This document shows, one piece after another, positions 15,301 through 56,379 of a stretch of 64,000 nucleotides of DNA. How positions within the stretch are numbered: position 1 is the stretch's first letter; each line of letters begins with the position of its first letter. The notes under the pieces are model-generated. The model searched no databases and was not told the origin of the DNA. It saw only the letters and a program-made list of their open reading frames with translations. Position numbers and translations under genes: made by a program. Origin of the DNA: a virus; the IMG/VR virus record IMGVR_UViG_3300046820_000297, positions 1 to 64,000 of that record, one strand, 5' to 3'.

Positions 15301-15596
15301 AAGTGTCTGATTTAGAATTCGTAATGAATTCCGTAGGTCAAGTAGATATTACATCTTATAGTCAATATGGTGGTACAGCAAGTATTAAAAAATCGCAAAA
15401 CGGTCAGTATGTTGCAGACCTTAGTATGAAGTATATAGATCCTGAAACAGGAGAGTTACTAAGTCAAAATAGACAATTCGTTAGAGCTGATCAAGATCTT
15501 AATTATCTTTATGCTCAGTTATCAGCAGCTCTTAGCGATAACTACGGTAGACTTACTAAAAATCTAAGAAAGAAAGAAAATAAAGATGGAGAATAG
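12396..15596 (+). CDS. Conserved crAss-like cargo protein with two hydrophobic segments
   Basis: 1066 aa. The N-terminus (MATYLPGVTDYIPRIQPFVP, then DFNFYSNALQTKQAQYDAGY) resembles a conserved protein of crAss-like phages found next to the RNA polymerase genes. Most of the chain is charged and helical, with an Ala/Glu-rich coiled region at about 405-435. Two Gly/Ala-rich hydrophobic segments, at about 543-578 and 742-775, could insert into membranes. This fits an internal protein ejected with the DNA to help form a channel through the host envelope, but that is inference. Its 3' end overlaps the next gene by 11 bp, suggesting coupled expression. Confidence 0.6.
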   Translation: MATYLPGVTDYIPRIQPFVPDFNFYSNALQTKQAQYDAGYEKISSVYGTLLNSEMSRTDNINRRDEFFTKIDNDIKKISGLDLSKDQNVKAAGKIFQPLIDDKFIQRDIAFTKNYRRELDRAEGFKNCTDEKKCGGKYWDGGVRALNYKLDEFTKVNINDTLGFSNPTYTPYVNVYAKAMEFAKEMGFDEAQNISWTPDGRYIITTTGGPQQIPSLTDSFVNYLKGDSAAMSMYQTSAYLERKDYATQYAEQFGGEEGAERDYLNTKITEINQIQQELLKQAEEELKTTKNKKVAGQKSIEKTPIEENLDKDFLEAFDSLNTQEELNTSAVDFSKSTLSNVEGIENLDINSMRARVDSAMANQLFYGDMQGAATDFAMNTMKVDIKADQYALAGYEHSLRVSEILLKDTLERKQKAEEKAAAEAEAEMVFDEEGMPVDGGAGQVNKVDPIKLVEGEITSANDDYAGGLEAQSKYVLDKLNAVIGDPNRSKQERELAAKKRDEIFGTASVYEDPNDPEYQKAIKDAAENGEGSWFNEILGGVEFAAGADMGIIGAGILAAGLSNPIGWAALAVGGIAMFNGVEDFMDNSDKTSSVPVPKKTKDGYMTSPGELASFRNNVTGTDYNNPNNFDALKSRLDSFISTQGDGLFRGDEVFLKDNADLKEVIDRAQMKKNAALSNVTNNNKLVRDRMVAKYGSDFEPGVIDMMFTPNGTKKNFEQFAKDYAAKYNPSLLEGESSGYGEMGTIAALTTAGAVGGGPIGAGLGFLGGLIASGMIDDVDDIYQELDDNYRKTYNSDEIQGLKSGRGSLDDGITGIFSQNRIYSFDPAGKSALKDAVRDLYAKDIAPALKNPSAKGATFLEGNLMNLEADDEVGNNPNASRVLSQILRSSFQTKWKESNDGRPLFDITRSGMVQGDPGKVGLTFTLSEDFIKKYKGTENNKGITWGLDGNDISVIMDRDKVNSQFFKSTEVSDLEFVMNSVGQVDITSYSQYGGTASIKKSQNGQYVADLSMKYIDPETGELLSQNRQFVRADQDLNYLYAQLSAALSDNYGRLTKNLRKKENKDGE

Positions 15597-18500
15597 TATA
15601 AATATAACCCCTACACCTAGCGGAAAACCCGCAACAGCAGACTTATATAAATACTCAGTAGGAAACGCAATAGAGGGTGTAGATCCGCTACCCACTCCAA
15701 GAACATCAGAAGAAGCTAAAAAAAAAGCGTTAGCTGATATTGATAAAGCTTTTTTAAATGCGTCTAGACCAGATGCGTTTAAGTTTGATAAACCTACAAC
15801 TTTCAATGCAGGTAGCAAGGGTTATAACTTTGATAGATATTATACACATCCTAAGTTCAAACAATTAGGATTTACTCCTTTGAGAGATAACGAAAGTTTC
15901 TACAATCAACACAGTAGCACATGGGATGATCTAGGACGTGCTGTTAAACAGATGCCCGCACTAGTAGGATTAGGTGCTAGCTCCACTTTTGGTAACTGGA
16001 GCAACTTCCTAAGTATGAAACCAGATACTGAAAATGCTGAAGAGATGGAAAGACGTATGTCTATTGCATCTTCTTCAAGAGATACATTCGGTGGTAAAGC
16101 TGTAAACTTCTTATCTAACGTACCATATACATTAGGTGTTATCGGTGAGATCTATGCAGAAGAAGCTGCACTGATGCTTGCAAGTAGAATTCCAGGAATG
16201 CAAGGTTTAGCAGCAGCTAAAACTGGACAAAATATTCTAAGAGGTGGTTTAGCATTTGAAAGATTATTCAATACATTCCGTGCAGGAAACAAAATTGATA
16301 ATGCTAAACAAGCATGGGATGCATCTAAAACACTTGGTAACTTTGCAAAGAACTGGTTACCTTTTCAAAATACCGCAGACTTATTCAGAGACTCTGGTAG
16401 AGCTGCAGCTAACATGGATAAACTAACCGACTTAGCTGCAGGATATAAAACATTTGGTGCATTCTATAGAGACTTACGTGAGATTAACCTAGTTACAGCA
16501 GAAGCTAAACTTGAAGGTGGATTTGTACAGAATGATGTTGCTAATACACTAATCGGAGACTTTAGAAAAAAGAATGGTAGAGATCCTAACGATATGGAGT
16601 CTGAAGCAATATATGCTCAAGCTCGTAAAGCAGGATACACTGCAGGTTTCTTAAACACCGGAGGAATATATATTTCTAATAAGGTAGTTCTAGAAAGAGC
16701 ATTGAAAGGATTGCCTTTCATAGATGAAGTAGAACATCTTGCAGGTAAAGGAATTAAGAATGGTAAACTTGTAAAGAACTTAGATTGGAAAACATCTGGT
16801 AAAAATCCTTGGGAAGTAATCTCAGGAGTTGGTTCAGGTGTAAAAGCACTAGGTAATAAGTACTATAGACAACAACTTGTTAAGAATGCTCCTAAGAATG
16901 GCATGCGTTTCTTGTCTGCAAACGTAATGGAAGGTATTCAAGAAATGTATCAGGAAGGTACCGCAAAAGGTGTTTCCGATTACTATACTCAGACATACTT
17001 AAATCCTTCTAAAGTAGGTAAAGCACAAGTTCTTTCATCTTTACAAACCGGTGTTAAGTCACAACTTTCTGGTGAAGGATTAGAAGTATTCCTATCAGGA
17101 TTCTTGATGGCTGGACCAATACAAGCTGTACAGTCTAGTGTTCATGGTGTATATAACATGGGACAACTTGCAAGACTTAAGATGCAAGACAAAGCATTCA
17201 AAGCAGATCCTGCAAATGCTGGTAAGACAAGTCCGTATGAGAAGTATCTTAAAGATCAAAAAACTTATAATGAAAAAGTTGTAAGTGCTTTGAACTTCTT
17301 AACAAAAGATACAAAGAGTTATTTCTCTACTGTAGATGCTAACGTAAAAGCACAGAAAGATTTTGCTGATCTATTTGAAAGTGCTGTATTAGAAGGTGAC
17401 GTTAAAGGTGCTGTTGATGCTAATGATGATGCATTAGCAAATCACATCTTCACTTTAATAGAATCCGGTCACTTAGATTTATTTACCGAGCACTTAGAAG
17501 GACTGAAACAATTAGATGAGAAAGAATTAGCAGATGCTCTATATGAGAATCCCGGTAATAAAACTTTTGATAAGAAAACAACTAGCGAAAGAATTGATGC
17601 TGTTATAGGAAGAATCAATCAGATTAAAGATACTCATAATAAATATCAATCTCTTAGTAATCCTTTTGACTTTAGACAAGATCCTATTGGATACTTTTCA
17701 TTTGAGTCCGCTAGAAAACTTGCAATATTCAACGACTTCAGTTATCAAAGAACTGGAGAACGTATGACTAGTATATTAGAAAAACTTAAAACCAATACAG
17801 CTCTATCAAATGTGGATTACATGGACATTGCTACAATGTTTAGTATTAATCCTAAGTTGATGGGTAACAACCTAGGTATTGGTGGTGCAACTAATATGCT
17901 CGCGTTACTCAAGCAAGAGATTGATAATCTTAAAGCAGGTACAGATGAGCAGAAAGATGAAGCCGTAAAACTTCAAAACAAGTATGATAAGCTTAAGAGT
18001 TTGTCAACACTTATTCAAGATTACGCAGCAAACTTAGATACATTAGAATCAGCGCCTGCTGAACAACAAGAAGAACTAGCAAATTCTGTTGAGGAATCTG
18101 AGAAACTATTAGGACAAGCGTTTAATGATTACATTAAACTTCTTGCTAAGAACAATGGTACAACTATCTTAGATAAAGATATTAATGATGCGTTCAGTGA
18201 TTTCCGAGACTACTGGAGATTAGGTAGAGATAAGACACAGTTTGCAGAAGCTGTGAATGCTCTTAATAATCCAGGATACTTTAGTGAGGTTGCTCGTCGT
18301 ATTAACGGTGCTTTAGAAGTTGCTTCTCAAGTTAGTGCTCAAAGAGCAAAAGAAGAAGTAGATGAGTACAGAAGACGTTATGCTACTAATGATTTCCTAA
18401 ATGGATTGCTTAGTCAGTTTAATGTATATGTACATGAAGATGAAGCTGAAGCTTATCTAGCAAATAATATTGTTCCTGAAAAGTTTGTTGATGCAGATAC

Positions 18501-21500
18501 AGGACAAGTTATTTCTCCATCTGATTCAAGATATCAAAAGATTCTAGAATTCATTGATGCTACAGATGATAGCTTCTTTGATCTTACTGGTAAGCGTTTG
18601 TTTAAACCAGCTATTGAAGATATCGGTGAGAAGTTATATAGAGAAGGTACAGACATATTTGAAAATACAGAGTCAGGTACATTTGTTACTCAGGTTGTAT
18701 CAGAAAGACAAGAGTCTGATAAAAGATCGTTTACTGATATAGCGAAACAATTTGGATTTGATAGAAGTGCTCCTATAACAGAAGTCACTATCGGATCTAT
18801 ATTAACGTCTATCATAAATGGTCCCGGAACAGTACAACAAAAAGAACTAGCACGACTATTAAAATCTTTGCTAGACGGAAACGAGAAGATATCCTTTGTA
18901 AGAAACCACTATACTAACTCTACATACGATCCTAAGAATGGTGTTATTGTAGATGCTCGTTATAGTTCTGAAGATTACAAAGTATTAGGAATGGATAAAG
19001 TATCAATTGAATACTCCATTCTTAGTGGATTGATGCAGAAGCTTGTAGTTGATAAGAGTGCCGATAAAGAATTTACTGATAAGATAAAAGACATCCGTGA
19101 GTCTTTCATGAAGGAACTAAGCGACCAACAGAAGAATTCATACGCTTACGCATTAGCTAACAATACTACGTTCTTATCTGAGATGCTTACTAATCCAACC
19201 TTTGCTGCATTAGCTACTCAGTATGAGTATAAAGGTACTCAGGTAGAACTAACAGATAAAGCAAAGAATATATTCGGAGCGTTCTTCAAAACACTTACTG
19301 ATTTCATCAAGAAGATCTTAAACATTAACAATGAAGAAAGATCTGTATACAAACAAGCACTTAATGTTCTAGCTAATAAGTTGACAGAAGGTCCTACTGA
19401 AGAAGCTGGTAAAAAAGAAGAAGGACCGGATACATCTGGTATCAAAGAGTTCTCTAGTTTAGATCCTAAGTTACAAGAAGAACTTAAGGAAGCATTTGAG
19501 AAGAAGAGAACTAAAGTTGCAGCAACAGATCCCGAGGTAGCAAAGAACATGGACTTTAACATGTGGTACCTAAATGATTTTGAAGCAACACGTATCGTAT
19601 CTAATTATAATACTAAGAAGAAAGTAAAAGAGGAAGAGGAGAAAGGAAAAGCTACAGAAGGTAATACTGTTATTACTATGGCTAACATTCCTCAACTTGC
19701 AACTGCTTTAGGTTACACTGTTGCGGAGATTAACTCTATGATTTTAGATGGTACTCCTACACAAGAGTTACTTGACATTATCAACAATAAAGTAGTATCT
19801 CCTAATGCAGCAGTACTTAGTGAAGAAGGTATGGAAGCCATCAACGCTGCTATAACAGATGCAAAAGATAAACTAACCGCAGCAAAATTAAGACTCACTG
19901 AAGATGCAAAGAATTATATAGATGATGATGGTACAATTTATACACGTGTAACAAGTCTTGTAAAAGATCCATTTGAAGCTGATTCTCAGACGGCATCGTT
20001 TAGAGGAACTATTATAGATGATCTTACTAGAGATTTCTTAGCTGGTCGTATTCAAAACATTGAAGAATTCAAAGATGCATATAAAATCTCTAGAGATAAG
20101 ATATCTTCAAAAGAAGGATTCAGTGATAAGGATGCAGCAGAGTTACCAATCTTTACAGCAAACTTCTTAAATGAACTATTTGACAATCTTAGAAATGTAA
20201 AGCGTGCTCTAGATAGAAATGGTATCAAGGTCATTTCTGATATCCCAACACTCTATGGAAAGTTAGATGGTAAAGATGCTGCAGGATCTATTGACTTACT
20301 AGGATATAATAGTAAGGGTGAAGTATTCATTATTGACTTAAAGACAGCATCAGGAGACAGAAATGTTCAGTATGCTTTAGAAGAAGCAATGCAAGATGCA
20401 TTAGGTGAAGACTATGCTGAATTCAAATCAACTCTTAAGAAAAATAAAAATTATTTAGAAGCTACTCGCAGCATGCTTCCTTTAGAAATGCAAAACAAAA
20501 TGACTATTGCATTTACTAAGTTTGGAAACAAATATCCCGAGCTAAAAGAAGAGATGCAGAAAGGTAGACTCTTTTTATATAAAGAAGGAGACCAAGCACA
20601 GTTAGCTGCATATCGCGAACTACTTAGACAATCTACAGGTATTGTTGCTGATAAGTTATACATCTTCCCGATGGTAGCATCTACTGAAAAAGGTTCGTCT
20701 ATTAAGTTTGTTAGAAACACAATGGTGAAAGCACCAGGTAGAACTGGTTATGTCATTGATCTAACTACTAACGATACTACATATAAGATATCTGATCTAA
20801 GACAAACAGTATTTGAATATCCTGAGAATCCTATTCAGAAACCAGGTGCGCCAGTTACTGAAGAACCAGAAGTAATTGAAGTTAGTTTAAAACCTATTGA
20901 AGTTACTACTGAAGAACCTATTACTCAAACTGGTACAGATGCTAAAGTTGATGTAAAAAAAGATAGATACTACAACAGTCCTGTAAACAGGATGGTTAAA
21001 GTACAAAAGGATTCTGAAAATACACCAATAACAAAAGAAGAAGAAGAAGAAATAGAAGCTGTTATAGAAAAAGCTAAAGAACTTGGATGGGACAAAAATA
21101 GATTATTTAGACAACTTAGTTCAATGGGGTACGCTTATGCTTTTGGAGTTCAGCCTGAAGGATATAGAAATTATCTTGAAGATAGACTTTCTGGTAAGAC
21201 AAATATAAAAGTAACATCTGAGTTTAACTTTTTTGAACAACTTGATAAAGAACTAGCAGCTTTAGAAGGTGCTCAAACTAATGAACAGACTGAAGAAGAA
21301 ACTCCCAAACAAGTAACCAAAGTAGCTATAATAAACAATAGTGATATTTGGTCATACACTGATGGTACATATACTGTATTACATCGTGAAGACGGTGTGA
21401 TTGGAGAATACATTAGTGATTTAGCATCTGCTAAAAAGATTGCTAGAGAGTACAAAGAAGAAAGCGATTACGATGCTACCAAGAAGAGAGCAAAAGCAAT

Positions 21501-23415
21501 GGTCATTGGTAAGAGAGTAGTCGAAGCAATGTGGGATCCTGAGAAGATGATGTGGAGATATTTTAATAAGAACACTAAAGAAGAATACAGCTTTAAGAAC
21601 TCATTAAAATTTGGAAAGCGTTTGTTCAGAGATAACAGAGGTTGGTTTAGAACTTGGTGGAATCAAATCTTAGATGATACACAAAGATCTGAATTTGCTA
21701 ATCTATACGGTAAGGTTAGAGACTTTATCTATCAAAATGAAGATGGTGGAGTAGATCCAATGACCTTAGAGTATGTTATGATGGTAAACTTACAAGGTGT
21801 TAAGTTTAGAAAATCTAAGGAGCTTACTTGGGCGACAGATGTTAGTGAGAAAGTATGGTTCTCTGATTCAGGAAGAAACTGGGATCAGTTTGTAATGGCG
21901 TTAAAGAATAGTGAAGATCTTACACAGTCTGGAATCATTAATGAAACTACTGAAGAGTCAGAACTTCGTGATATGATTATCGACATCATGATGCGTAATC
22001 CTAATGGAGTTACTAAGAAAGCAGTAGAAGCATTAGCTAAAGAGATTAGTTCTGAAGGAAGAATTCAAACTGAAAAAGACGACTTCTTTGACAAGACCGG
22101 TATTGACTTTGATGATTTTGAAGAGATATACGAATCTTTGGGAGCTACTAAAGATATTATTTACATCGATCCTTATACTGGTGATAAAACTGAAGTAGAA
22201 GATAAGTTCGGTAGCAAAAGAAGTATGCCTGTTAAGTATGACTTACTAGCTAATCAGTACAGAGGAAAGGTTATATACATAACAACCGATTCATCTATCC
22301 AAGAAGATTTAGAAAAACTTGGAAGCTACGTTGAAAGCGGTAACTACTTTATAAACTTAGTAGTTGATAAATATAAGAAGCAACTTGAGGATCTTGCAAA
22401 AACATTAATAGATCAAGCTCGTAATTCAGATGAAGATAAAATAGCAAATGGTTTAGTTAAAGCTCTAAAAAATACAGAAGACGATAGTAAATATATAATG
22501 TATTGGTTAAGTGCTGCTGCTAAAGGTAATGAGAAAGCTAAGTCATTAATGGATACTATATACTTAGAAGCATTAACAGATGCTAGAAAGTATGTAGGGA
22601 CTGACGCAAGAACTGTAGTATTTGATAACGCTAATGCATTGTCATATTACCAAATGTTTGATACAATTATCGTAAATGAATTATCTGACATAAAGAGAGA
22701 TGCTAAAACAGATAGTATTGATAAAGCTGAACAAGCTGTTCCGAAAGATAAGAAGGTACGATTAGCTGCAACAGATGGGCTTGATATTCTAAAAGGTGTT
22801 ACTCAAAGAAGCTTTGTAATGAATATTAAAAAGCGTATTGGTGATATTACTACTAAACGAGATCATTTACTAATGCGTATGGAGTTAAATAATGCAACAA
22901 CATTAGGTACTCTTGATATAGCGCTTAGAGAAGAAGGTCTTACTTTAGAAGAAGTTCAAAGTTTACTAGCACAAAAAGCACAAGAAGTTGTTAATCAGTT
23001 GAGTATCAAAGATATAAAGTTTGGTGGTAAGACACCTACATTATATGAGTACAATGATAATGGTACAACTCTAATATTAATGGCTCGTTCAAAATTAGCT
23101 AATGGAGTAGCATTTGATGATGTAACTGACATTTACAATAACATGGAAAATGCTACTGAGTTAGATTTGAAAAAGACCACGAAATTTCGTAATTTAGCAG
23201 AAGAGGAAATAAACTTAAATCTTCGTCCAATGGATATCGAAAAAACAGCTACAACACCATCAGCATCTACACAAACTAAGTCAGATTCTGCACAAACAAA
23301 AATTAAAAATGATGCTGCAGATAGAGTTGCTGCCTTGAGAGCTAAGAAAGATACCATGGATGAACAATCTACGGACGATAGTTTAGATGATTTATTCAAC
23401 TGTCCCATTAAATAA
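15586..23415 (+). CDS. Giant cargo / RNA polymerase-associated protein with PD-(D/E)XK-like domain
   Basis: 2609 aa, first of three adjacent giant proteins. The N-terminal 550 residues are Ala-rich and amphipathic. A segment at about 1120-1240 resembles the HExxH regions of the next two proteins, but the motif is degenerate (IEYSI, 1141-1145), so metal binding there is probably lost. Residues about 1430-1600 look like a PD-(D/E)XK nuclease core: GSIDLLGY with Asp1570, then VFIIDLKTASG with Asp1584 and Lys1586. The tail is acidic and rich in Lys/Glu/Ser. In crAss-like phages such giant proteins are packaged with the virion RNA polymerase and enter the cell with the DNA. The nuclease-like core could process host or phage DNA, or be inactive. 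The start overlaps the previous gene by 11 bp. Confidence 0.68.
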   Translation: MENSINITPTPSGKPATADLYKYSVGNAIEGVDPLPTPRTSEEAKKKALADIDKAFLNASRPDAFKFDKPTTFNAGSKGYNFDRYYTHPKFKQLGFTPLRDNESFYNQHSSTWDDLGRAVKQMPALVGLGASSTFGNWSNFLSMKPDTENAEEMERRMSIASSSRDTFGGKAVNFLSNVPYTLGVIGEIYAEEAALMLASRIPGMQGLAAAKTGQNILRGGLAFERLFNTFRAGNKIDNAKQAWDASKTLGNFAKNWLPFQNTADLFRDSGRAAANMDKLTDLAAGYKTFGAFYRDLREINLVTAEAKLEGGFVQNDVANTLIGDFRKKNGRDPNDMESEAIYAQARKAGYTAGFLNTGGIYISNKVVLERALKGLPFIDEVEHLAGKGIKNGKLVKNLDWKTSGKNPWEVISGVGSGVKALGNKYYRQQLVKNAPKNGMRFLSANVMEGIQEMYQEGTAKGVSDYYTQTYLNPSKVGKAQVLSSLQTGVKSQLSGEGLEVFLSGFLMAGPIQAVQSSVHGVYNMGQLARLKMQDKAFKADPANAGKTSPYEKYLKDQKTYNEKVVSALNFLTKDTKSYFSTVDANVKAQKDFADLFESAVLEGDVKGAVDANDDALANHIFTLIESGHLDLFTEHLEGLKQLDEKELADALYENPGNKTFDKKTTSERIDAVIGRINQIKDTHNKYQSLSNPFDFRQDPIGYFSFESARKLAIFNDFSYQRTGERMTSILEKLKTNTALSNVDYMDIATMFSINPKLMGNNLGIGGATNMLALLKQEIDNLKAGTDEQKDEAVKLQNKYDKLKSLSTLIQDYAANLDTLESAPAEQQEELANSVEESEKLLGQAFNDYIKLLAKNNGTTILDKDINDAFSDFRDYWRLGRDKTQFAEAVNALNNPGYFSEVARRINGALEVASQVSAQRAKEEVDEYRRRYATNDFLNGLLSQFNVYVHEDEAEAYLANNIVPEKFVDADTGQVISPSDSRYQKILEFIDATDDSFFDLTGKRLFKPAIEDIGEKLYREGTDIFENTESGTFVTQVVSERQESDKRSFTDIAKQFGFDRSAPITEVTIGSILTSIINGPGTVQQKELARLLKSLLDGNEKISFVRNHYTNSTYDPKNGVIVDARYSSEDYKVLGMDKVSIEYSILSGLMQKLVVDKSADKEFTDKIKDIRESFMKELSDQQKNSYAYALANNTTFLSEMLTNPTFAALATQYEYKGTQVELTDKAKNIFGAFFKTLTDFIKKILNINNEERSVYKQALNVLANKLTEGPTEEAGKKEEGPDTSGIKEFSSLDPKLQEELKEAFEKKRTKVAATDPEVAKNMDFNMWYLNDFEATRIVSNYNTKKKVKEEEEKGKATEGNTVITMANIPQLATALGYTVAEINSMILDGTPTQELLDIINNKVVSPNAAVLSEEGMEAINAAITDAKDKLTAAKLRLTEDAKNYIDDDGTIYTRVTSLVKDPFEADSQTASFRGTIIDDLTRDFLAGRIQNIEEFKDAYKISRDKISSKEGFSDKDAAELPIFTANFLNELFDNLRNVKRALDRNGIKVISDIPTLYGKLDGKDAAGSIDLLGYNSKGEVFIIDLKTASGDRNVQYALEEAMQDALGEDYAEFKSTLKKNKNYLEATRSMLPLEMQNKMTIAFTKFGNKYPELKEEMQKGRLFLYKEGDQAQLAAYRELLRQSTGIVADKLYIFPMVASTEKGSSIKFVRNTMVKAPGRTGYVIDLTTNDTTYKISDLRQTVFEYPENPIQKPGAPVTEEPEVIEVSLKPIEVTTEEPITQTGTDAKVDVKKDRYYNSPVNRMVKVQKDSENTPITKEEEEEIEAVIEKAKELGWDKNRLFRQLSSMGYAYAFGVQPEGYRNYLEDRLSGKTNIKVTSEFNFFEQLDKELAALEGAQTNEQTEEETPKQVTKVAIINNSDIWSYTDGTYTVLHREDGVIGEYISDLASAKKIAREYKEESDYDATKKRAKAMVIGKRVVEAMWDPEKMMWRYFNKNTKEEYSFKNSLKFGKRLFRDNRGWFRTWWNQILDDTQRSEFANLYGKVRDFIYQNEDGGVDPMTLEYVMMVNLQGVKFRKSKELTWATDVSEKVWFSDSGRNWDQFVMALKNSEDLTQSGIINETTEESELRDMIIDIMMRNPNGVTKKAVEALAKEISSEGRIQTEKDDFFDKTGIDFDDFEEIYESLGATKDIIYIDPYTGDKTEVEDKFGSKRSMPVKYDLLANQYRGKVIYITTDSSIQEDLEKLGSYVESGNYFINLVVDKYKKQLEDLAKTLIDQARNSDEDKIANGLVKALKNTEDDSKYIMYWLSAAAKGNEKAKSLMDTIYLEALTDARKYVGTDARTVVFDNANALSYYQMFDTIIVNELSDIKRDAKTDSIDKAEQAVPKDKKVRLAATDGLDILKGVTQRSFVMNIKKRIGDITTKRDHLLMRMELNNATTLGTLDIALREEGLTLEEVQSLLAQKAQEVVNQLSIKDIKFGGKTPTLYEYNDNGTTLILMARSKLANGVAFDDVTDIYNNMENATELDLKKTTKFRNLAEEEINLNLRPMDIEKTATTPSASTQTKSDSAQTKIKNDAADRVAALRAKKDTMDEQSTDDSLDDLFNCPIK

Positions 23416-23425
23416 TTAATAAGAG

Positions 23426-32400: not shown

Positions 32401-34018
32401 TTTAGCAATCACAGACACTGACAAGTTACTAGTAGATAAGAAATCTATAAAAGAACAATACGATCTTAGATTATTTACAGGTAATGAGAACAAGTCTAGT
32501 AAGAAAGCTGAAATTCTTTCTGCTAGATCTCCTTACAATCCTAAGAATCAATTACTTGCACCGCTACCTGAAACAACATTCAGCTCGTATGGTGAGAGAG
32601 GATTTGAGTTGTTCTATAAGTTTGTCTTAGAAAGAGAGACTCTAAGAGCATTGATGCCTTATCAAGAGGTGGTTCAGTCTAAGGAGTTCATAGAATTCCT
32701 AAAGATGATCAATAACAATACTAATTTACCAATGCGTTACGAAGAATTCTTGCGTAACAAAGCATTGGATAACTTGTATATTGATAGCAGCATCTTTGCA
32801 GGTGAGAACAAACAGAATCTTGTAGGTTCTCATGCTAAGTTCGAACACTTTGTTACAGAGTATCCAGAACTTATAACTAACTATCCAGTTCTTGAAATGC
32901 TTGTTCGTAAGGTACAAGGAAACAAAACATTCTTTAAGCTACTTACACAAGAGAAAGACGGACAAGTTCTTACTTCTTACAAGGATCAAATGCTACAGTT
33001 AGCAGATCCAGGTGTTAGCAAAGTAAAGGATAAAGAACTTAATAGAGTAATTAGTGCGTTCTTTGAAAAATTACCAACCGTTGGATTTATTCAAGGAGGT
33101 AACAATACTCGTTCAGGTTTGTATGTGATGAGTCTATTTACTATGGATAACATTGCACCATTTATTGCAAACAATATTCAGCAGTATGTAGATGTATTTA
33201 ACAAAGATGCGGTGAAAACAGAATCTATTCTTAAGAAGTTTTCTAAGAAATACGATGTTAAGTTTTCAACCGGTCGCGATACCTATAGTGCATACTTAGC
33301 AGATAGTCCTCAGAGTGTTTTCAATATAGAGCAAGTAAGCAAAGATGTTGTAAAGGAACAGCAATTTGACTATGTCAATATGGAGACTGGTGAATTGGAA
33401 CCGGTTAAAGTATACGATGAGAACTTGATGACAATGACATCCGTAGAGTTTGATACTATAGCTGCTGAGAATCCAGACAGCATATTTGTATTTGACGATC
33501 AGTATCCTATTGGAGGTAAACCAAACAAGACACCGACAAACGGTTCTAGAAAAGTAATGAGAAAAGGTCTTGATACAAACAAGAGCTTTGGAATATACTT
33601 ACAACAACCAAGTGGTCAGAATCCAAATGTTGATGAATTTGAGAAATACAAAGAGATCTTAGATCAACAATTAGATGAGCTATTAAGAAGAAAGAACTCT
33701 GGAAGTACTATCGTGTTCCCATCAAAAGGAGTGGGTATAGAACTATTAGGATTTGTACCTAGCGGAACTACCTACTTAGAGAACAAACAGTTAAAAAGAA
33801 ACAGCAATCTGTACGTATATTTGTCTAAGAGACTTCTCAAAGATTTTGGTTATGTCAATCCTATGTTCGATCTTGTAAGTAAAGGTTTCTCAACCGAACT
33901 ACTAGAAGGAGCTGAAACAGGTTTGGATTATATCCAGAATAGATTGATGGAAGCAGGTGTAAAGCAGAAAGTTTCTGACAGTACGGTATTAGAATATATT
34001 AAAAATTGTAAAGGTTAA
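23426..34018 (+). CDS. Giant virion RNA polymerase with zincin-like domain
   Basis: 3530 aa. The RNA polymerase call rests on residues about 2310-2360: VRIPTQGANSLDFMEVYEF, PEAAGN, LPLEVVAKSGGDFDIDKL. This matches the double-psi beta-barrel catalytic loop, with metal-binding Asp2350, Asp2352 and Asp2354 in DFDID, the form described for the single-chain crAss-like polymerase of phage phi14:2. The polymerase is thought to travel in the virion and transcribe early genes. A HExxH motif (HEAWH, 860-864) followed by YAEEFLAEKF suggests a zincin-like metalloprotease domain, perhaps for self-cleavage of the polyprotein. Residues about 2370-2480 are a Lys/Glu-rich coiled coil. It is longer than the phi14:2 enzyme (about 2200 aa), so it appears fused to extra cargo domains. 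Confidence 0.88.
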   Translation: MICDSSSNWSLEKSDIDKLETAIYKLLSDKANAPESDFVMSKFLGYLYNRALQGYGDNDKALTLLRAVPETMKIVITAFDELSDKLMSKKVPLDMNTLFKLSNSFNADINNVKEYVNKNLAKATIVTSQSANEDAKKAQTPPQSDGTVLGEFQALPSNPFTSTGNETEEMTWYYDFLKTLDKRMMDLGGPDKDGGVDFNGRKVYVSMVLGSNIPENQLYESTRQDANLMKASGSTMYIMFTDASGNPSYFSDTYGNATSEDGKLIYFPQRAIPTSTKDKQGNLVFDLESIGGRTLQSVGYAARVERSTNEAIAYRYNNAFAKLKQLQDYLRSNPTASVRLDIDNISRGFMNLQSPETTRVVDVKNITAFTPVISGNKKLINVPGVLQPIEFFMAPYSEEMASKVADLLLNEVIYNNKVMTPKNKFNLIADFTQFGTTSDSFRYDTETGTIFLGTEALDTTDKNTAKQRIVEFLTREFENKNVKNAKGEFVKQKNQFFYNNKKATGNFIDFTLAANTSGAFDMSISTRPYLDWVKENAMVSVELKSGEIRQVNGYVEFNMGVDAMRILATQPFNEIVKTTGEEGYSKLNPTKTITGNVKKVGWKAVLSKATEVYPTTKDGDFQVVSTRIPGTNQHFGNPFSSTESVIKKNKDLIKVDDTVAAVKSYIDWVTNTNFDYSNSGKTEAEVELLKERAHWIRKELMSGRLKGKDILYYIELKEPAHSNALDYLINDFNWGAFEFEQTKKAQKKAAPENIVPSNLPTNSDVVANKSKDFDFGAYKRRGQGEIDATPSQIIKAAAWYDNLKIKFKDASGNIIEKNMKDVIPYHVMFRIANSNGDVRARWTRSGINLYEGSDYSDLYHEAWHGFTQWFLTTDEKLKLYDSVKNSGERIKYYDDTTNSWKSMSASDLDFSIKNHKLYAEEFLAEKFREFALNNGKFPKEQPVAVKSIFRRIWDALKALFGFASKESMLTPISESNIAEVFEKLYVGDLSDYTMDSANIDFDVLNSGITATSDQYQDLNITDSILLADSLNSIISELVDSSGTAKATAALFNNTAYKKALLEDAREALLNRLKAVIKEYDETEDSFLKEQLDKNMQLLNYAYNNFGNIENLSGGLIDYFNKRYGLFDMTMQSKAIDREFNIGNQTDAVNTQDGVSDREGLMAGSGVEYGTIERMDDGVMFLLSTLFEKENGQFTYNKLGFKKTTPFRRAYSAVSTATENAYTRIKMIENMDLASKMLLDSGKVDDRYTVIQQLLAKLGPLDSTDISNQSLWNSFFHSFRFDKLSGNQVTVEYNENGGGVSIKVGKSDGADKLTGRNLETGFEVNKTKSTFLKKNKDGIYTLDLEGVLRKYPTSVMALNKPIEFLRDLGLDITENLKIKRQLADRNVVSNIYKIIVSSGDKNRIITGLKNKGAASLFDDQGTLWNSLLQIQSRYSGTVNDYMIKNAKGDSQSEMSNPSTAGNLLNRINDAVDSIDGKHAAFDRMINSPEMSHYNPERNPFVKSSVIFKRMFGPDLSKRQVRNGIPFMLEYRSQLGTQVLEKEIDQLVESTTLLSGLKSSDSDFQTAFLRDFFTINLQGFAEAYKHADKTQAFIVALTNNGNPSFYVHPKEFANVNGSILANDIIIDYIGSELERIKKVINFSGTGTRPEDIILWYDKKGNPVTYKNTGSTFTIFDDILLEDTKNMLIGEESITDLESFKNFLASNAMVKDQILQQLNDYFADQVTKHKEILSAFPVLQRPSVYSSFLSNVAQNLKNQPSSVVFETAVKSMVYNSFIHKFEMNTLVYGDAAQNNHDKEEHMKRIPGFFASGRIPVADVFMDRMFAQKGGRYHLSPWFTNSGLEAPKDPLSSQTSILKTAVFKDVFTDSVYYEEMMNVLDEYNKTAAVPIPKEAYDAYKNMKVADAQAWMTFDAYRALEIRLDNWSPQKEELYNKIINGENVDIAETLQFFPVKKLQYSGPLQISNFTANAFHKYSVMPLIPNVIKGRRLESLHNQLVSQGYAYGVMHSGSKIASIGKDGDLIPFYKNDEFDPAFTEEGYEFVSNTIFLDYLKEQLVTKDKFKKNVKFPTQLRKLVTSGLKEFGVPTDFEPKLTESERIKKWGELSEKQKIAQSGFYELEKAYLNHIAKITTIAENKLKRELGFHNGKINMKRLIEYVKESLTAQDLPEQTIESIKVDANGKLNVPLDISTDPAKIESLITALVNKRIIDQMSKGEQYIQGSGVGFEKFSKPTEDDLKKYGSDGLPFYKYNPNKPTSAMKVKIALHGDFKKLLDVKHNDGKPIKTLDRLNEMIQNDQWLDTGENRKMITLFGVRIPTQGANSLDFMEVYEFLPEAAGNIMILPLEVVAKSGGDFDIDKLVTIVPSLSYNERSVELTKAVKTKKSEATLETEKEKLKEEFDVIDEKYDDLLAELPQKEEIKNLIAEKKELVAQRKVLAGKLRKALEEQEQRVKEGKSIKGNQKYIDKKRQELEEINNKIEPIQNTINTEYNRRDEDRGLNEARESEIKDVIEKIRDINRQIESYNTNAETNLLLSTMVSIVSRPDNYINLTRPNGTTIFTEDEEDRGVSIKDEFGKYNRKSFKTSTNSSRKFSPTRIMENGYNISKAISLSAGKDGIGMIATGNTFSNLYRSVGMYLSSEYTGKKGEALYQKLFLEHNKIGDSISLSHLMTADKKRYISDVISELMNGYLDVAKDDWVYDINAIKEFEPEFELMILAGVPVRQIVLFLSQPKVRQYLERVRQYGSPYAGLTGGEYVNPNFAKYTALLDTLDPAVVSGTGKKRPSVEALVASIQKRRGERQVSFDTDALYKNLSGKGNTALDNDIFEHFVEIQLMSKANSEVKRSLNFDTDKARTYFEAVAKQQGSHGVSAKVPKEMVTKLLDANQSVLGSFMKQDLIRQALSAVLPLRSAKYLNDYLLEHLDALDIDMDQEEKYVSGFVSDLNQYIFENFLYRFNTNDTEYRSNDIKVELEQQDLLKFGAVLMPSEVVDEETGEVRLAITDTDKLLVDKKSIKEQYDLRLFTGNENKSSKKAEILSARSPYNPKNQLLAPLPETTFSSYGERGFELFYKFVLERETLRALMPYQEVVQSKEFIEFLKMINNNTNLPMRYEEFLRNKALDNLYIDSSIFAGENKQNLVGSHAKFEHFVTEYPELITNYPVLEMLVRKVQGNKTFFKLLTQEKDGQVLTSYKDQMLQLADPGVSKVKDKELNRVISAFFEKLPTVGFIQGGNNTRSGLYVMSLFTMDNIAPFIANNIQQYVDVFNKDAVKTESILKKFSKKYDVKFSTGRDTYSAYLADSPQSVFNIEQVSKDVVKEQQFDYVNMETGELEPVKVYDENLMTMTSVEFDTIAAENPDSIFVFDDQYPIGGKPNKTPTNGSRKVMRKGLDTNKSFGIYLQQPSGQNPNVDEFEKYKEILDQQLDELLRRKNSGSTIVFPSKGVGIELLGFVPSGTTYLENKQLKRNSNLYVYLSKRLLKDFGYVNPMFDLVSKGFSTELLEGAETGLDYIQNRLMEAGVKQKVSDSTVLEYIKNCKG

Positions 34019-34022
34019 TAGA

Positions 34023-37000
34023 ATGAACGCATGCGCTTTTGGTCCTGAGAAGGATGCACTAAACGAATCGATAAAGATATTTGGAGAATTCATAGCTAAC
34101 AAAGATTATCTAGAATATGGACGTGTTCGTTCTGCAGAAGAAATCCAAGCGTCTCTCAAACTAGAAGGTAAGATCTTAGAACAAGATCCTAATTTCATAA
34201 GAGTTTCTGAGACAGTAGAAGACAATCTTAAAGATCTTACTGTGTTTCCAGGATTTGATGCAATGCTTACAGGTATTGAAGTTGACACAGCAGGTATTAG
34301 TGTAAACAGATCTAATGCTATTGTAGACTTTATGGTCAGAAGTTTCTCTGATCGTCTTGGTATTCCTTATGAGTTTGTATCAAGAGGTGAAGCATTTGAG
34401 ATCTTAAAGCAAGCAGGTAAAGCGTATACACAAGAATCAGGATTCTTTATTGGTGGTAAGGTATATCTCATTAGAGAAGACCTTAGTTTAGATACAGCAA
34501 TGCATGAATTTGCACATCCGTTTGTGAGAGCGATTCAAAAAGAGAATCCAGAATTATTTGAGAAGTTATATAATGATCTAATCAATACAGATACCGGTCG
34601 TAAGATGGTATCATTAGTATCTATCTTAGAAGATAAACTTACTCCTGATCAAGATTTATTCAAGGAAGAAGTGATGGTTCGTGCGTTGTCTAAACACGCG
34701 TATGATAAAGTAAATCAGAAACCAGAAGACACTTCATTCTTTAACGCAATTAAGAATTTCTTATATCATCTAAAGCAGTTATTAAGAAAGTATCTAGGTA
34801 AAACATTTGATGTATCTAAGCTTGATAGCACTACAACACTTGACGAGTTATCAGAGATATTCTTAGCTGCTAAAATAGATTTCCAAACAGAGTCTGTAAA
34901 TCAAGCAGACATTGTAGCGTTTAAAAAGGACATTAACAATCTTGTTGATGAGCTTACTAATATAATGGAGAATGACTCCGGTGCAAAAGCTGTAAGCAAA
35001 GCTATCAACGATGTCTACAGAGTTGCAATGAATCATAAAGAGCGTCTTGAGGTAAACAAAAACCTTAGAGATATGGCGGAACTTCTCAAAGGAGAGTTCG
35101 ATGATTCTACATATAAGCTTATCATTAATAACCTAAGAGACTACGAGAGTCTTATCACAGATAAGTTTGCAGAACTCGTAGAGAAATATCAGTATAATCA
35201 TGATAAAGCTACTGCATATATTGAGAGCTTGTATCAGATTAAACACATGGCTAGGTTGATGGTAGCTCATATGAATGAGATACGTAATCAACCACAGACA
35301 CCGGATATCACAAAACAATTCTTTTACTATAGACAATTAGCGACTGATTGGTCAAACACTATTGCTACAGCAAGAGAATTACTTTCTGAAGAAGGATTAG
35401 AGAGCGGAGAACTAGTAGACTTGATTGCTAGTATTGAAGGTTATGTAAAAACCGCAATCAGTATTGATGATAAATTCAGTGTACGTTCTGCAACAGAACT
35501 CCTTACTGATGTCTTAGAACCATTAGCTCAAGAAGTAGAGAGGTATTACAATGATATCATCGATGAACTTGTTGCAAAAGGTGCGTCCGAACAAAAAATC
35601 GAGCGCTATAGAAAAGAATTTAAAGACACAATTCTAGATAAGGATGCTCTAAAGGAGTGGTTAACCGGACAAAGAACAGATACAAATGTGCTTAGTGCAT
35701 GGATGGAATCTTATATGAATATTCAAGACCCGGTTGTATTCGGTCTTGCTCAATTCATCAACAATAATATTTCTGATGTACTTACTATTAGTCAACAAAG
35801 ACATAATAAGTTTGCTACAGAGTTTGAACCGTTGCTGAAAGCTGCAGGTATTGATATTAAAAATCTAAAAGCATTACGTGATGCAGTTACTTATATAGAA
35901 GCTGACGGTATCTATAATGAGAAGGGTGAGTATGTAAGAAGAGAAAGATATGCATTCAAGAACCACTTGAAAGAATACAGATACGAGATTGGTAAACTAA
36001 ACGATGAGATTAGAAAAGCTGAGATTACTGCACAGGAGACTGGTGATAGCACTGAGCTTGATAAACTTAAAGTTGAAAGAGAGAAATTATTAAATGAACA
36101 CTTCTATGATTCTAAAGCTGATATCGTAAAGCAAGCTGAAAGAAGATTAATTCGTGATGAGATTGGTGAGAAAGCATACAATGCAAGAGATCTTGTGCTT
36201 AGAAAGATTAAGAGTTTGGATTTGGGAATAACCGATCCAGATGAACTAGTAGATAAAGATAGACTTGCTATTCTAGATTCTCTATGGAGAGAGTATAATT
36301 TGCTGTTCTCTTTAAGTTATGCTGACGGTACCAAAAAGGATCCGTCTTCTGACGATTATAAAATCGCTGTTAGATTACGTGAGTATAGAGAAGAGACAAA
36401 AGAATTCTATGAGTGGGTTCCTGTAAAGAACATGTTCTCTAGAGCACTAGCTTCTTACGAACAACAGTTGAGAGACAATGGTATTAGCGGTGGTGAGTTT
36501 ATTAAAATGCGCGCTGATTGGATTAAAAACAATACTCGTGTAAAAATTAAACCTGAATTCTGGCAAGAAGTAAATAATATCTTAGAAGAGATTAGATCTT
36601 TAAAACCAGACATCCCCGAGAATCTTAGAAACAAATTAGATCTTGATGAACTCTATGCTGAGATTAGTGATCAGATAAGCGCTTTCCGAGATGACGACGG
36701 TCAACCAGATGGTTTGATCATGTCTGAAGAAAAGAAGAAAGCAATCAAAGAGTTAGATAAGAAGATCGAGAAGTCTAGAAAGACAATCACCGGTCTAATG
36801 GGATTGAGTGAAGAGGAACAAAATGAATATGAATACATCTCAGGATTATTACTATTAAACGGAGATAACTTAAGACAATGGGCGGATGAGAATCCTGATT
36901 TAATAAATAGATATGAGTACTTACAAAATCTAATTGATGAGTATGCTCTAAACGATACCACTGTAGGAAGAATCAATGTACTTTATAAAAAACTGAATGC

Positions 37001-39575
37001 TTTAAGGAGTCGTTCTGCTACAAGTCAGTACATAGATGCTGTCAATGAGTTACTAAAACCAGGTGAGAACGAGGATGACAATGTAGATACAGAACAGTTA
37101 TTCAGCATATTTGGTATTAGAGAGTTTGATGCATCTAACATTGATAGATTACTTGAGCCTGAAGTATCTAATCTATTAAGAACTAGTGGTAAATTCAATA
37201 AGTGGTTTATGGATAACCACTTTACTTCTGAATATACTATTAAGAAAGGTAAAAAGAAAGGTACTAAAGTAAAGACTCACAAAAGAATCAGCGCTTGGAA
37301 CGTAACAAGACCGAACGATGATATGTATTATGAGACTACTGAAGTAACTGATAAAGATGGAAATGTAGTTGATACTGTACAAGGTATCCCTACACTGAAG
37401 TATTACAGACGTTCTTTAAAATCTGAATACAGAACTGAAAAGATTACTATGGGAGAAGCAATGCGTCGAGGTGACTTGACACTAGCTACTGTAGATGAAG
37501 TCGGAAGATGGTTACCAAGACCTGATAGTAAGTATAGAAACGAAGAGTACTACAGGATGAAGAATACTAATCCTGCTCAGTTTAACTTAGCAAACAAGAT
37601 GCTCCAGTTCCATTTAGAGAACCAAGAGAGTTTGTCTAAGAACTCTAGACTAGGAGTATTTGCACCACGCTTTAGAAAGGATGGTTACGAAACAATAACT
37701 GAAGGTACATTAAAAGATAAGTGGGATGCTGCAGTAAGTAATACTAAAGCGTCATTTGCAAAAGCAAAAGATGATTTAGATTTAGGATACAATCCTCAAA
37801 CAGAAGTCAACTACGTTACTCTAGACATGTTCGACTCTGAAGTTAGCGGTATTCCTATTGCAGGTAAAGCAGACTTAGAGCTTAGTGAAACATCGGAAGA
37901 TATGTTCTTAGGTGTAATGCGTTATATGCAGAGTGCTGAGAGACACAAGAAGCTTGTAGAGATTAATCCTCAAGTACGTGCTATTCAGAAAGTTGTGAAT
38001 GGTAAAGAAGGTGCTATAAAAGACATGAATAAACGTAGTAAGAGCGACATGCTTGCGTTTAATCAAGTTAGATTTGCAATAAAGAAAGAGAGATCTGTAA
38101 GATCCCAGGTTATTAACTCACTTATAGAAAGAGAGTTTGAAGGTAAGACACAAGCTGGTGTAACTGCTGACATGGCAGGATTGAATAAGTTTGGTAGTTT
38201 TGCGATGGGTCTTGCATCAACTGCGTTCTTTGCATTAGATATTACATCTGCATTAAAGAACTCATTTGGTCAGGCGTTTCAGTCTATCATTGAAAGTGCC
38301 GGTGGTCAGTATTTATCCCCTAGTAGTTTAGCAAAAGGTGCTATATGGGCACAGTATGCAACTGCAGAGATTTCATTTGAGATATACAAGTACGGACCAA
38401 AAGGTTTGAATGTTCAGATCTATGAGATATTCGATCCTGAAATGAAGTTCAGACCTGAAGTAAAAGGTTATGGTGATAAGTTCGGAACTAGTTCTACTAG
38501 AACATTAACTCGAGACATTCTTAAAGACAGAAGCTGGTTGACAAACTTCCGTGTATGGACTCAGCTTAATGCTACAATGCAGTTGTTTGGAGGAGTAATG
38601 CACCATCAGATGGTTGATCAAACTATCAATGGCGTCACTAAACAGATACCTTATATGGAAGCATTCGAAGTTAAAGACGGACAACTTACTGTTAAAGAAG
38701 GAGTTAGTCAAGAATGGGCACCCGGTGGTAGTAAGTTCAAGATGATGCAGAACCGTATCCAAGCTATGAACAGAAATCTTAATGGTGCTTTCACACAGTT
38801 TGATACCCCTATGGGTGGTAGATACTTGCTATGGAGAATGGTTACATTCTTGAAGAAGTGGTTTGCTAACATGTTCTTGAATCGTTTTGGATACCGTGGT
38901 AACTTCTTGAATCCACAAGCTAGATGGGATGTTCAAGGTAATCAGATGCGTATTGGTTATTATATACAGTCTCTAAACACACTAGTAAGAGCTATTACAA
39001 CATTAGGAAAAGATACCAAAGTATTATCTAAACCCGAAAAAGCAGCACTTAAGAAAACTGCTACTGAGTTGTTAGTTATTGTAGGGGGTCTGAATCTAAT
39101 TCTCTTATTATTTGATTATGATCCAGATGATGAGGAGCGTTATGAGAAACTCCGTCGTAAGTCGGGACCACTTCCGGGTATCTTTACTGCAGACAGTGAG
39201 TACGAATACAACACTGTAGGATTTATGGAGAACCATGCATTGTTCTTACTTACTAGTACATTGAACGAACAAGAAGCTATGGTACCAGTACCCGGTTTAG
39301 GATTTGATGACTATGCTAAATTGTTTACTCTAGATTCAATTGCTCTTACACATACTGTAGAGAATACATCTAAGACGATTGCAGCTATTGTAAACTTGAT
39401 AACTCAGGATCCATCAGCGTATTATAAGCGTGATGCGGGTCCGTTTGAGTGGCAACAACAAGAAGATGCCAAGGTGTTTAACTATCTACTAAAATCTTTT
39501 GGATTATCTGGTAAAGCAGTAGATCCGGTAAATGCATTGAAAAACTTTGAAAGTGCACAAAGTCGTTTCAAATAA
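34023..39575 (+). CDS. Giant cargo protein with N-terminal zincin-like motif and membrane segment
   Basis: 1850 aa, third of the giant cassette, starting 4 bp after the RNA polymerase gene. HEFAH (161-165) after a beta segment (FFIGGKVYLIRE), with a downstream EE pair (FKEEVMVRALSKHA), suggests a zincin-type metallopeptidase, similar in layout to the HEAWH region of the polymerase protein. The middle (about 280-1150) is almost entirely charged helix and coiled coil. Near the C-terminus, residues about 1680-1699 (ELLVIVGGLNLILLLF) form a likely membrane segment. It may be co-packaged and ejected with the polymerase; protease action on the cargo precursors is possible. Substrate and activity are not shown by the sequence. 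Confidence 0.65.
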   Translation: MNACAFGPEKDALNESIKIFGEFIANKDYLEYGRVRSAEEIQASLKLEGKILEQDPNFIRVSETVEDNLKDLTVFPGFDAMLTGIEVDTAGISVNRSNAIVDFMVRSFSDRLGIPYEFVSRGEAFEILKQAGKAYTQESGFFIGGKVYLIREDLSLDTAMHEFAHPFVRAIQKENPELFEKLYNDLINTDTGRKMVSLVSILEDKLTPDQDLFKEEVMVRALSKHAYDKVNQKPEDTSFFNAIKNFLYHLKQLLRKYLGKTFDVSKLDSTTTLDELSEIFLAAKIDFQTESVNQADIVAFKKDINNLVDELTNIMENDSGAKAVSKAINDVYRVAMNHKERLEVNKNLRDMAELLKGEFDDSTYKLIINNLRDYESLITDKFAELVEKYQYNHDKATAYIESLYQIKHMARLMVAHMNEIRNQPQTPDITKQFFYYRQLATDWSNTIATARELLSEEGLESGELVDLIASIEGYVKTAISIDDKFSVRSATELLTDVLEPLAQEVERYYNDIIDELVAKGASEQKIERYRKEFKDTILDKDALKEWLTGQRTDTNVLSAWMESYMNIQDPVVFGLAQFINNNISDVLTISQQRHNKFATEFEPLLKAAGIDIKNLKALRDAVTYIEADGIYNEKGEYVRRERYAFKNHLKEYRYEIGKLNDEIRKAEITAQETGDSTELDKLKVEREKLLNEHFYDSKADIVKQAERRLIRDEIGEKAYNARDLVLRKIKSLDLGITDPDELVDKDRLAILDSLWREYNLLFSLSYADGTKKDPSSDDYKIAVRLREYREETKEFYEWVPVKNMFSRALASYEQQLRDNGISGGEFIKMRADWIKNNTRVKIKPEFWQEVNNILEEIRSLKPDIPENLRNKLDLDELYAEISDQISAFRDDDGQPDGLIMSEEKKKAIKELDKKIEKSRKTITGLMGLSEEEQNEYEYISGLLLLNGDNLRQWADENPDLINRYEYLQNLIDEYALNDTTVGRINVLYKKLNALRSRSATSQYIDAVNELLKPGENEDDNVDTEQLFSIFGIREFDASNIDRLLEPEVSNLLRTSGKFNKWFMDNHFTSEYTIKKGKKKGTKVKTHKRISAWNVTRPNDDMYYETTEVTDKDGNVVDTVQGIPTLKYYRRSLKSEYRTEKITMGEAMRRGDLTLATVDEVGRWLPRPDSKYRNEEYYRMKNTNPAQFNLANKMLQFHLENQESLSKNSRLGVFAPRFRKDGYETITEGTLKDKWDAAVSNTKASFAKAKDDLDLGYNPQTEVNYVTLDMFDSEVSGIPIAGKADLELSETSEDMFLGVMRYMQSAERHKKLVEINPQVRAIQKVVNGKEGAIKDMNKRSKSDMLAFNQVRFAIKKERSVRSQVINSLIEREFEGKTQAGVTADMAGLNKFGSFAMGLASTAFFALDITSALKNSFGQAFQSIIESAGGQYLSPSSLAKGAIWAQYATAEISFEIYKYGPKGLNVQIYEIFDPEMKFRPEVKGYGDKFGTSSTRTLTRDILKDRSWLTNFRVWTQLNATMQLFGGVMHHQMVDQTINGVTKQIPYMEAFEVKDGQLTVKEGVSQEWAPGGSKFKMMQNRIQAMNRNLNGAFTQFDTPMGGRYLLWRMVTFLKKWFANMFLNRFGYRGNFLNPQARWDVQGNQMRIGYYIQSLNTLVRAITTLGKDTKVLSKPEKAALKKTATELLVIVGGLNLILLLFDYDPDDEERYEKLRRKSGPLPGIFTADSEYEYNTVGFMENHALFLLTSTLNEQEAMVPVPGLGFDDYAKLFTLDSIALTHTVENTSKTIAAIVNLITQDPSAYYKRDAGPFEWQQQEDAKVFNYLLKSFGLSGKAVDPVNALKNFESAQSRFK

Positions 39576-51604: not shown

Positions 51605-51846
51605 CATTATGTTAACCTATAGGCTCTTTATCCTATAGTTCTGTACTTTTATTATTAGATTATATGTACAGTTCAGACTATATCATCACACATTTCTGTG
51701 TGTTCCGCGCTCTTGGTACTTTACTGACCGTTCTGGTCTCCATGTACTAGTCGTTGCACTTTACTTATATCCCTATAAGTCTTAGCTCAGGATTGTCTAT
51801 CTCTAGATTTTCCCTGAATTCACGGAATTTATTGCGGACTCAACGT

Positions 51847-52596: not shown

Positions 52597-52600
52597 ATTA

Positions 52601-52631: not shown

Positions 52632-52651
52632 GTAGACTGCATATTTTATTA

Positions 52652-56336: not shown

Positions 56337-56379
56337 ATATACAATATACAATATATTATACTACATACCTAATATATTT

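Follow-up and report, generated by a model that had tools for sequence, protein, structure and literature searches.

Three giant proteins are encoded one after another in the window, the 64,000-nt stretch of viral DNA analysed here, and a preliminary description made from the sequence alone suggested that one zincin-like domain had been copied into all of them, with two copies active and one decayed, possibly in cargo that processes itself. This locus raises the question of whether each protein carries such a domain, how the copies are related and what a copy that has lost its catalytic residues might still do.

The giant proteins and their gene block

The gene order in the window is that of the Crassvirales RNAP cargo block, with a stabilization protein, cargo proteins and the three giants (Table 1). 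In crAss001, gp47, gp49 and gp50 form the same block after the tail genes, with giant sizes and a DxDxD RNAP, and the structural paper does not mention a peptidase in any of the three (PMC10172136, PMC6235969). In P0001, a degenerate zincin (class ZA) precedes a PD-(D/E)XK-like nuclease motif, a region in which the Pfam search gave no match. In P0002, a zincin of class ZB is followed by an RNAP with DFDID. The DxDxD loop is typical of crAss-like virion RNA polymerases (Yutin 2021, PMC7886860), and P0002 has it within a giant transcription-block protein, as expected of the Crassvirales RNAP cargo block; the N4-like vRNAP differs in this motif. A single-sequence search of the P0002 RNAP region against PDB chains, including the solved phi14:2 vRNAP, gave no significant match; extreme divergence has been reported for crAss RNAPs (PMC7886860). 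Searches of the entire giant proteins against Pfam and PHROGs returned no matches. Presence of the cargo proteins in the virion is known only for the crAss001 and phi14:2 homologues, and the three giants are probably virion cargo of a crAss-like phage, carried in the particle.

Table 1. Features of the three giant proteins, with nucleotide positions in the window.
Feature	Position	Strand	Basis or remark
P0001, 2609 aa, crAss001 gp47-like cargo protein	15586..23415	+	gene order as in crAss001, cr106_1, phi14:2
Degenerate zincin domain ZA, P0001 1044-1268	18715..19389	+	HMM of HExxH-intact homologues; AF2; BFVD
SGLMQ, P0001 1147-1151, at the HExxH position of intact ZA orthologues	19024..19038	+	alignment; ligands and catalytic Glu gone
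TFLSEMLTNPTF, P0001 1195-1206	19168..19203	+	T1195 in third-ligand Glu column; intact homologues EFVAEALSNxxF
Aromatic amphipathic helix NIFGAFFKTLTDFIKKIL, P0001 1228-1245	19267..19320	+	
PD-(D/E)XK-like nuclease motif GSIDLL..FIIDLKT..QLAAY, P0001 1567-1680	20284..20625	+	sequence motif; homologous to cr106/cr116/cr126 cargo
P0002, 3530 aa, RNAP-bearing cargo protein, crAss001 gp50-like	23426..34018	+	
Intact zincin domain ZB: HEAWH 860-864, E920/E921, helix 947-961 of P0002	25766..26425	+	
GGDFDIDK, P0002 2348-2355, DxDxD metal-binding loop (sequence-predicted)	30467..30490	+	kept in homologues
P0003, 1850 aa, crAss001 gp49-like cargo protein	34023..39575	+	
Intact zincin domain ZC: HEFAH 161-165, E216, helix 238-254 of P0003	34293..34922	+	

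Intact and degenerate zincin copies

HEAWH of P0002 (nt 26003-26017) and HEFAH of P0003 (nt 34503-34517) each occur once, where a chance HExxH is expected at most 0.02 times per protein, and in both cases a conserved Glu helix and then an aromatic amphipathic helix come next, as the preliminary description had reported. The IEYSI string and the three aromatic helices that it quoted were likewise each found once, where it had placed them, and by hydrophobic moment these helices rank in the top 0.3-1.6% among same-length stretches of their own proteins. The predicted third zinc ligand is E921 in ZB and E216 in ZC, both in invariant columns. HExxH is kept in 84 of 84 (P0002) and 104 of 108 (P0003) non-redundant homologues, a sample partly biased by the search pattern. 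The preliminary description had named lack of conservation in relatives as fatal to its proposal; in samples drawn independently of the motif, the P0002-type site was intact in 11 of 11 records, and ZC was present in 45 of the 50 related records searched, with an intact HExxH in all 45. The relatives do not distribute the copies identically: in crAss001 an intact ZB-type domain with HEAFH stands at the end of gp47, whereas ZB of the window lies in the RNAP protein, and crAss001 gp49 carries a degenerate ZC (EEFAH), whereas that of P0003 is intact.

The copy in P0001 was recognised by a profile (HMM) built from HExxH-intact homologues only, which matched residues 1051-1273 at E=1.5e-33, while reversed decoys gave nothing comparable; the degenerate region aligns with these homologues over its full length. 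Intact ZA orthologues, which occur in gp47-like or nuclease-linked proteins, read PIEHVIL-HELVH, AIETVFL-HELIH and AIEHTIL-HEIIH, and the window reads SIEYSIL-SGLMQ. IEYSI (1141-1145), earlier taken for the decayed HExxH, is thus the conserved start of the active-site helix, and SGLMQ, which begins six residues later, occupies the motif itself. This correction of the register matters, for a mutant designed without it would be placed wrongly. The earlier statement that this copy has no metal ligands was borne out, as the substitutions are H to S, E to G, H to Q and third-ligand Glu to T. Loss of that Glu is coupled with loss of HExxH: among ZA-type copies, it is kept in 6 of 6 intact ones and missing in 18 of 19 degenerate ones. 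The P0001-type site was intact in only 3 of 18 records of the motif-independent sample. ZA lacks the HExxH signature of a gluzincin-like zincin metallopeptidase and, although homologous by descent, does not show the signature of activity.

The AF2 models of the ZA region (pLDDT 88.3, pTM 0.84) and of the ZC region (pLDDT 87.5, pTM 0.85) are confident, and both have strands ahead of the HExxH helix and two C-terminal helices. DSSP assigned E67-71, E78-81, E85-88, H107-123 and H159-168 in the P0001 model and E50-53, E56-60, H66-84 and H121-140 in that of P0003. Agreement of the two folds was judged by element order and library matches. In BFVD, ZA matched polyvalent proteins, a cr4_1 exonuclease, a phi14:2 structural protein and a Vibrio phage vRNAP, among others, at E<=1e-3, and a crAss 'RNAP associated protein fused to zincin protease' at E=9.6e-3. 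Structure prediction, as proposed in the preliminary description, gave a zincin-like order of elements; in the PDB, neither sequence nor fold searches matched a solved structure significantly, zincins included. Among weak PDB matches of the ZA profile, the best were 9sfn (E 0.07) and 8vb2 (E 0.4), proteins of phage ejection or of the virion interior, which we regard as a lead and not as evidence.

One may ask whether the likeness in P0001 is a coincidence, with a helical linker and an aromatic helix imitating a zincin. ZA has no remaining metal ligand and no PDB match, and its degenerate profile, compared directly with ZB and ZC by hhalign, scored 2.5% and 24%, which is not significant. However, the match to the intact-only profile, unequalled among the decoys, the full-length alignment, the AF2 model and the BFVD matches already contradict a coincidence, which we consider extremely improbable. 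Because the degenerate copy has no significant direct match to ZB or ZC, the linkage was made through intact ZA: its HExxH-intact relatives match the other two classes with hhalign probabilities of 92.6% and 94.6% (reversed decoys, <=20%), and the intact-ZA HMM reaches ZB of P0002 at E=1.3e-4, compared to 1.5e-33 for P0001. Sequence, together with the predicted models of ZA and ZC, shows that the three regions are members of the zincin superfamily with the same order of strand hairpin, active-site helix, Glu helix and aromatic amphipathic helix. The earlier idea of one domain copied into all three holds only loosely, as to common superfamily. Orthologues of each class sit at the corresponding position in other phages, which led us to reject a recent duplication into three genes; judged from these alignments, the copies are three ancient, position-specific classes.

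Selection on the inactivated copy

Between the window and its nearest relative, dN/dS was 0.099 for ZA, 0.088 for ZB and 0.052 for ZC. A tree with the degenerate ZA copies as a single clade was rejected (AU p=0.0013). By these sequence comparisons, the catalytic residues of ZA were lost at least twice in evolution, and ZA is a pseudo-enzyme maintained by purifying selection and not rubble. The preliminary division into two active copies and one decayed copy thus holds insofar as ZB and ZC keep HExxH and Glu, consistent with activity, and ZA has lost them, but 'decayed' does not describe a domain under such selection. Since the residues were lost and the domain is still held by selection, ZA probably does a non-catalytic job.

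Possible roles of the zincins in the cargo

We consider it fairly likely that ZB and ZC are peptidases acting after ejection and that ZA is a conserved pseudo-peptidase. The cargo block, with its counterparts of crAss001 gp47, gp50 and gp49, would be injected with the DNA, and ZB and ZC, as active zinc metallopeptidases, would then act with the cargo itself or host proteins as substrates. Cleavage by them might release or switch on modules, the RNAP among them, since both flank the RNAP linearly whatever the gene boundaries: the order ZB-RNAP-ZC is kept among relatives, at times within a single ORF. ZA may persist for a role in packing, ejection or docking, and the loss of catalysis there may have been repeatedly tolerated or favoured.

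The preliminary description suggested possible self-processing of the cargo. In such a reading, the three giants would be precursors, and ZB and ZC would cut these cargo polyproteins in the head, either ahead of packaging or in its course. The fused ZB-RNAP-ZC frames of relatives (4,500-6,200 aa) would need cutting to match the split relatives, and such cutting is presumed for P1 DdrB-like proteins, according to passages of PMC5512222. However, crAss001 virions were shown to contain gp47, with its intact ZB-type site, gp49 and gp50, and their gel bands of ~150, ~270 and >300 kDa fit the uncut proteins (262.5, 154.5 and 276.9 kDa for gp47, gp49 and gp50, respectively), and the N4 vRNAP, which also bears an HExxH domain, is described in passages of the same source as packaged unprocessed. 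Self-processing inside the virion is thus poorly supported and unproven, and we consider it quite improbable.

It is also conceivable, though unlikely, that ZB and ZC are effectors cutting host proteins (e.g. RNAP-associated or defence proteins) and not cargo, with ZA a dead relic. Cleavage of host proteins is among the roles proposed for polyvalent zincins in passages of Iyer et al. 2017 (PMC5512222), and ZC also occurs in non-crAss phages beside different genes. However, the near-fixed positions of ZB and ZC around the RNAP hint at a connection with the cargo itself, and a dN/dS of 0.1 is not expected of a relic.

Returning to post-ejection peptidases with a conserved pseudo-peptidase, we tentatively extend this reading to crass-like phages at large, which may carry a fixed zincin set in the injected cargo, two nearly always intact and one repeatedly turned into a selected pseudo-peptidase; the dead copy could be a regulator, substrate guide or ejection scaffold of the cargo complex. 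If this is true, catalysis at that position is dispensable and the fold is not. Crass-like phages are among the most abundant gut viruses, and their cargo proteins are barely annotated. The two putative peptidase sites and the dead site, all three conserved, give the exact residues to mutate in cultured phages (crAss001, phi14:2), and make it possible to test the long-standing question of the function of zincins in injected phage proteins.

Zincins in phage cargo are already known, including one crAss protein so named. The zincin-like MPTase of polyvalent proteins likewise has an HExxH helix and a later Glu helix within giant multidomain phage proteins, is encoded beside virion genes, is delivered with the DNA and is linked to virion RNAPs, as passages of Iyer et al. 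2017 (PMC5512222) describe; unlike those domains, ZA, ZB and ZC match no Pfam zincin model above the cut-off. In those passages we found no description of one position repeatedly inactivated beside two intact copies, and in the literature no report of a recurrently inactivated zincin copy. The 'Putative RNAP associated protein fused to zincin protease' of crAssphage ctbg_1 (A0A345MT41) places a zincin in a crAss RNAP-associated protein; we found no statement on three classes, catalytic state or a pseudo-zincin in its record. The N4-like virion RNA polymerase (PMC12633501) is a giant vRNAP ejected from the virion, with HExxH in its C1 domain; that domain (residues 2124-2375) lies after the RNAP, whereas ZB lies before it.

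Identity and kinship of the zincin-like domains

The window, from a virus record of 71,833 bases, has a crAss-like gene order, in which a stabilization-like protein is followed by several cargo-sized proteins and three giants. The best matches of the stabilization-like protein were in Leptolyngbya phage Lbo-JY46, Cellulophaga phi4:1/phi17:2, an epsilon crAss-like phage and Flavobacterium phages. P0002 carries GGDFDIDK, a DxDxD loop that marks the crAss-like virion RNA polymerase (PMC7886860), and P0001 contains a motif of the PD-(D/E)XK type and is weakly homologous to cargo proteins of crAss-like phages. Their counterparts in crAss001 and phi14:2 are virion proteins. Lbo-JY46 (locus L004) is the best match of the stabilization protein and is listed with a cyanobacterial host, a label that may merit a check; two HExxH domains are present in its giant protein.

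Features of the window and of its giant proteins
Feature	Position	Size	Content
Stabilization-like protein		1372 aa	ahead of cargo-sized proteins
P0001	15586-23415 (+)	2609 aa	gp47-like; domain ZA
ZA profile match	P0001 1051-1273
Fast-evolving part	P0001 1751-2000		dN/dS 0.47 (about 0.1 elsewhere)
Fast-evolving part	P0001 2251-2500		dN/dS 0.42 (about 0.1 elsewhere)
P0002	23426-34018 (+)	3530 aa	gp50-like; domain ZB
HEAWH	P0002 860-864
P0003	34023-39575 (+)	1850 aa	gp49-like; domain ZC
P0003 start	34023-34300	about 90 aa	ahead of zincin
HEFAH	P0003 161-165
AAA ATPase-like region	50855-53089 (-)		two ORFs resembling parts of one AAA ATPase
GIY-YIG-like endonuclease ORF	51847-52596		between these two ORFs
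Metallopeptidase-like gene	53103-54296 (-)		DUF2201 (HELLH) and VWA-like domain
Homing-endonuclease-like ORF	55464-56351 (-)		TTG start; within replication block

The HExxH motifs of P0002 and P0003 reported in the preliminary description were recovered (chance expectation <0.02 per protein). Each precedes a conserved Glu helix and, beyond it, an aromatic amphipathic helix that ranks among the strongest of its protein. HMMs grown on 157 loci yielded 25 ZA, 84 ZB and 108 ZC non-redundant domains. A profile built from five HExxH-intact ZA sequences alone matched P0001 with E=1.5e-33 and the ZB region of P0002 with E=1.3e-4; nothing comparable to the former appeared in reversed window proteins used as decoys. 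Profile comparison gave 92.6% for intact ZA with ZB, 94.6% for intact ZA with ZC and 96.1% for ZB with ZC, against at most 20% for reversed decoys; the degenerate ZA profile alone showed no link to ZB or ZC. The three thus belong to a common superfamily, yet the classes are ancient and distinct, each with orthologues of its own. The proposal of one domain copied into all three proteins holds only loosely, since these are not fresh copies.

Confident AF2 models of ZA (pLDDT 88.3, pTM 0.84) and ZC (pLDDT 87.5, pTM 0.85) both showed the same order of elements: strand hairpin, active-site helix, Glu helix, aromatic helix and final helix. Among viral predicted structures, ZA matched polyvalent proteins, the cr4_1 exonuclease, a structural protein of phi14:2 and the vRNAP of a Vibrio phage (E<=1e-3), and also a crAss protein recorded as 'RNAP associated protein fused to zincin protease' (E=9.6e-3). 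A PDB search with the models returned no significant match. Two solved phage ejection/internal virion proteins, 9sfn_G and 8vb2_A, carry the signature 'YgLxnxxEFvxxxltnxxFqxxL...lwxxf' as in ZA at non-significant E-values; it is possible that they are unrecognised zincin-like folds.

According to Iyer et al. (2017, PMC5512222), no domain is more common in polyvalent phage proteins than the zincin, for which they proposed processing or effector roles. At least one crAss protein was already named as a zincin fusion, and prior mention of the active domains is likely. The paper on the crAss001 structure does not refer to a peptidase, and our literature search, of incomplete coverage, found no paper linking HExxH with crAss-like phages. 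As far as our tools show, it is new that the domains fall into three classes, that ZB and ZC are consistently intact and that ZA has been inactivated recurrently and under selection.

Loss of the ZA active site

The degenerate copy proposed in P0001 is real, but its register was different. In the alignment with the intact-ZA profile, ILHEIIHELTV stands over ILSGLMQKLVV, and therefore the lost HExxH is SGLMQ (1147-1151). IEYSI (1141-1145), previously taken for it, is rejected by this alignment; it is a conserved helix start present in active members too. Intact orthologues have HELVH (L133), HELIH (L097) or HEIIH (L090), and more distant relatives have HEILH (cr4_1 gp27, annotated as exonuclease) or HEIMH (phi14:2 structural protein). 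T1195 replaces the Glu preceding the SExLTNPxF motif. Among the 25 ZA domains, this Glu is present in all six with HExxH and absent in 18 of the 19 without, consistent with a role as the third ligand.

ZC was intact in 45 of the 45 records where it was found (50 searched, picked by ZB), ZB in all 11 readable records (picked by ZC) and ZA in 3/18 (picked by ZB). Degenerate ZC occurs in crAss001 gp49 (L011; EEFAH) and cr108_1 (L005; EECAH). The degenerate ZA rows do not form one clade (AU test, p=0.0013); the best tree has five state changes, and a single change was found in 0/200 bootstrap trees. More than one loss is favoured, the number being uncertain given the weakness of many branches and the length of some intact rows. 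Between the window and its nearest relative, dN/dS was 0.099 for ZA, 0.088 for ZB and 0.052 for ZC, rough values since synonymous sites are near saturation. ZA is therefore unlike a domain freed from function. The best reading of ZA is a pseudo-enzyme that has been maintained, rather than a decayed copy.

Arrangement and possible role

Across relatives, the linear order ZA/nuclease, ZB, RNAP, ZC is constant while gene boundaries shift. Single-ORF joins, counted as ORFs in overlapping loci and not as independent phages, numbered 77 for ZB-RNAP, 7 for RNAP-ZC and 5 for ZB with ZC; the longest open frame reached 6,174 aa. The zincins flank the polymerase at movable junctions, which suggests that the cargo itself is the target of ZB and ZC. 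There is no support for self-cutting in the head: the crAss001 bands at about 150 and 270 kDa are consistent with gp49, gp47 and gp50 in uncut form (PMC10172136, PMC6235969), and N4 vRNAP is packaged without processing according to PMC5512222. Action after ejection is therefore favoured, and the zincins would work at that stage.

The C-terminus of crAss001 gp47, annotated only as an RNA-polymerase subunit, is an intact ZB-type zincin (HEAFH; L011). Some relatives join ZB, RNAP and ZC in open frames of 4,500-6,200 aa (L204, L205, L206, L207, L208). A variable module precedes ZC: relatives (L001, L009, L010) are longer there than P0003, by about 250 to 580 residues at the N-terminus. In others, G003 (L160/L202), G016 (L196) and G032 (L195), a second ZC-type domain lies about 2-3 kb upstream in the same ORF.

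Elsewhere in the window, the putative DUF2201 metallopeptidase is a separate gene unrelated to the cargo. The GIY-YIG-like ORF between the two AAA ATPase-like ORFs is possibly an intron or homing insertion.
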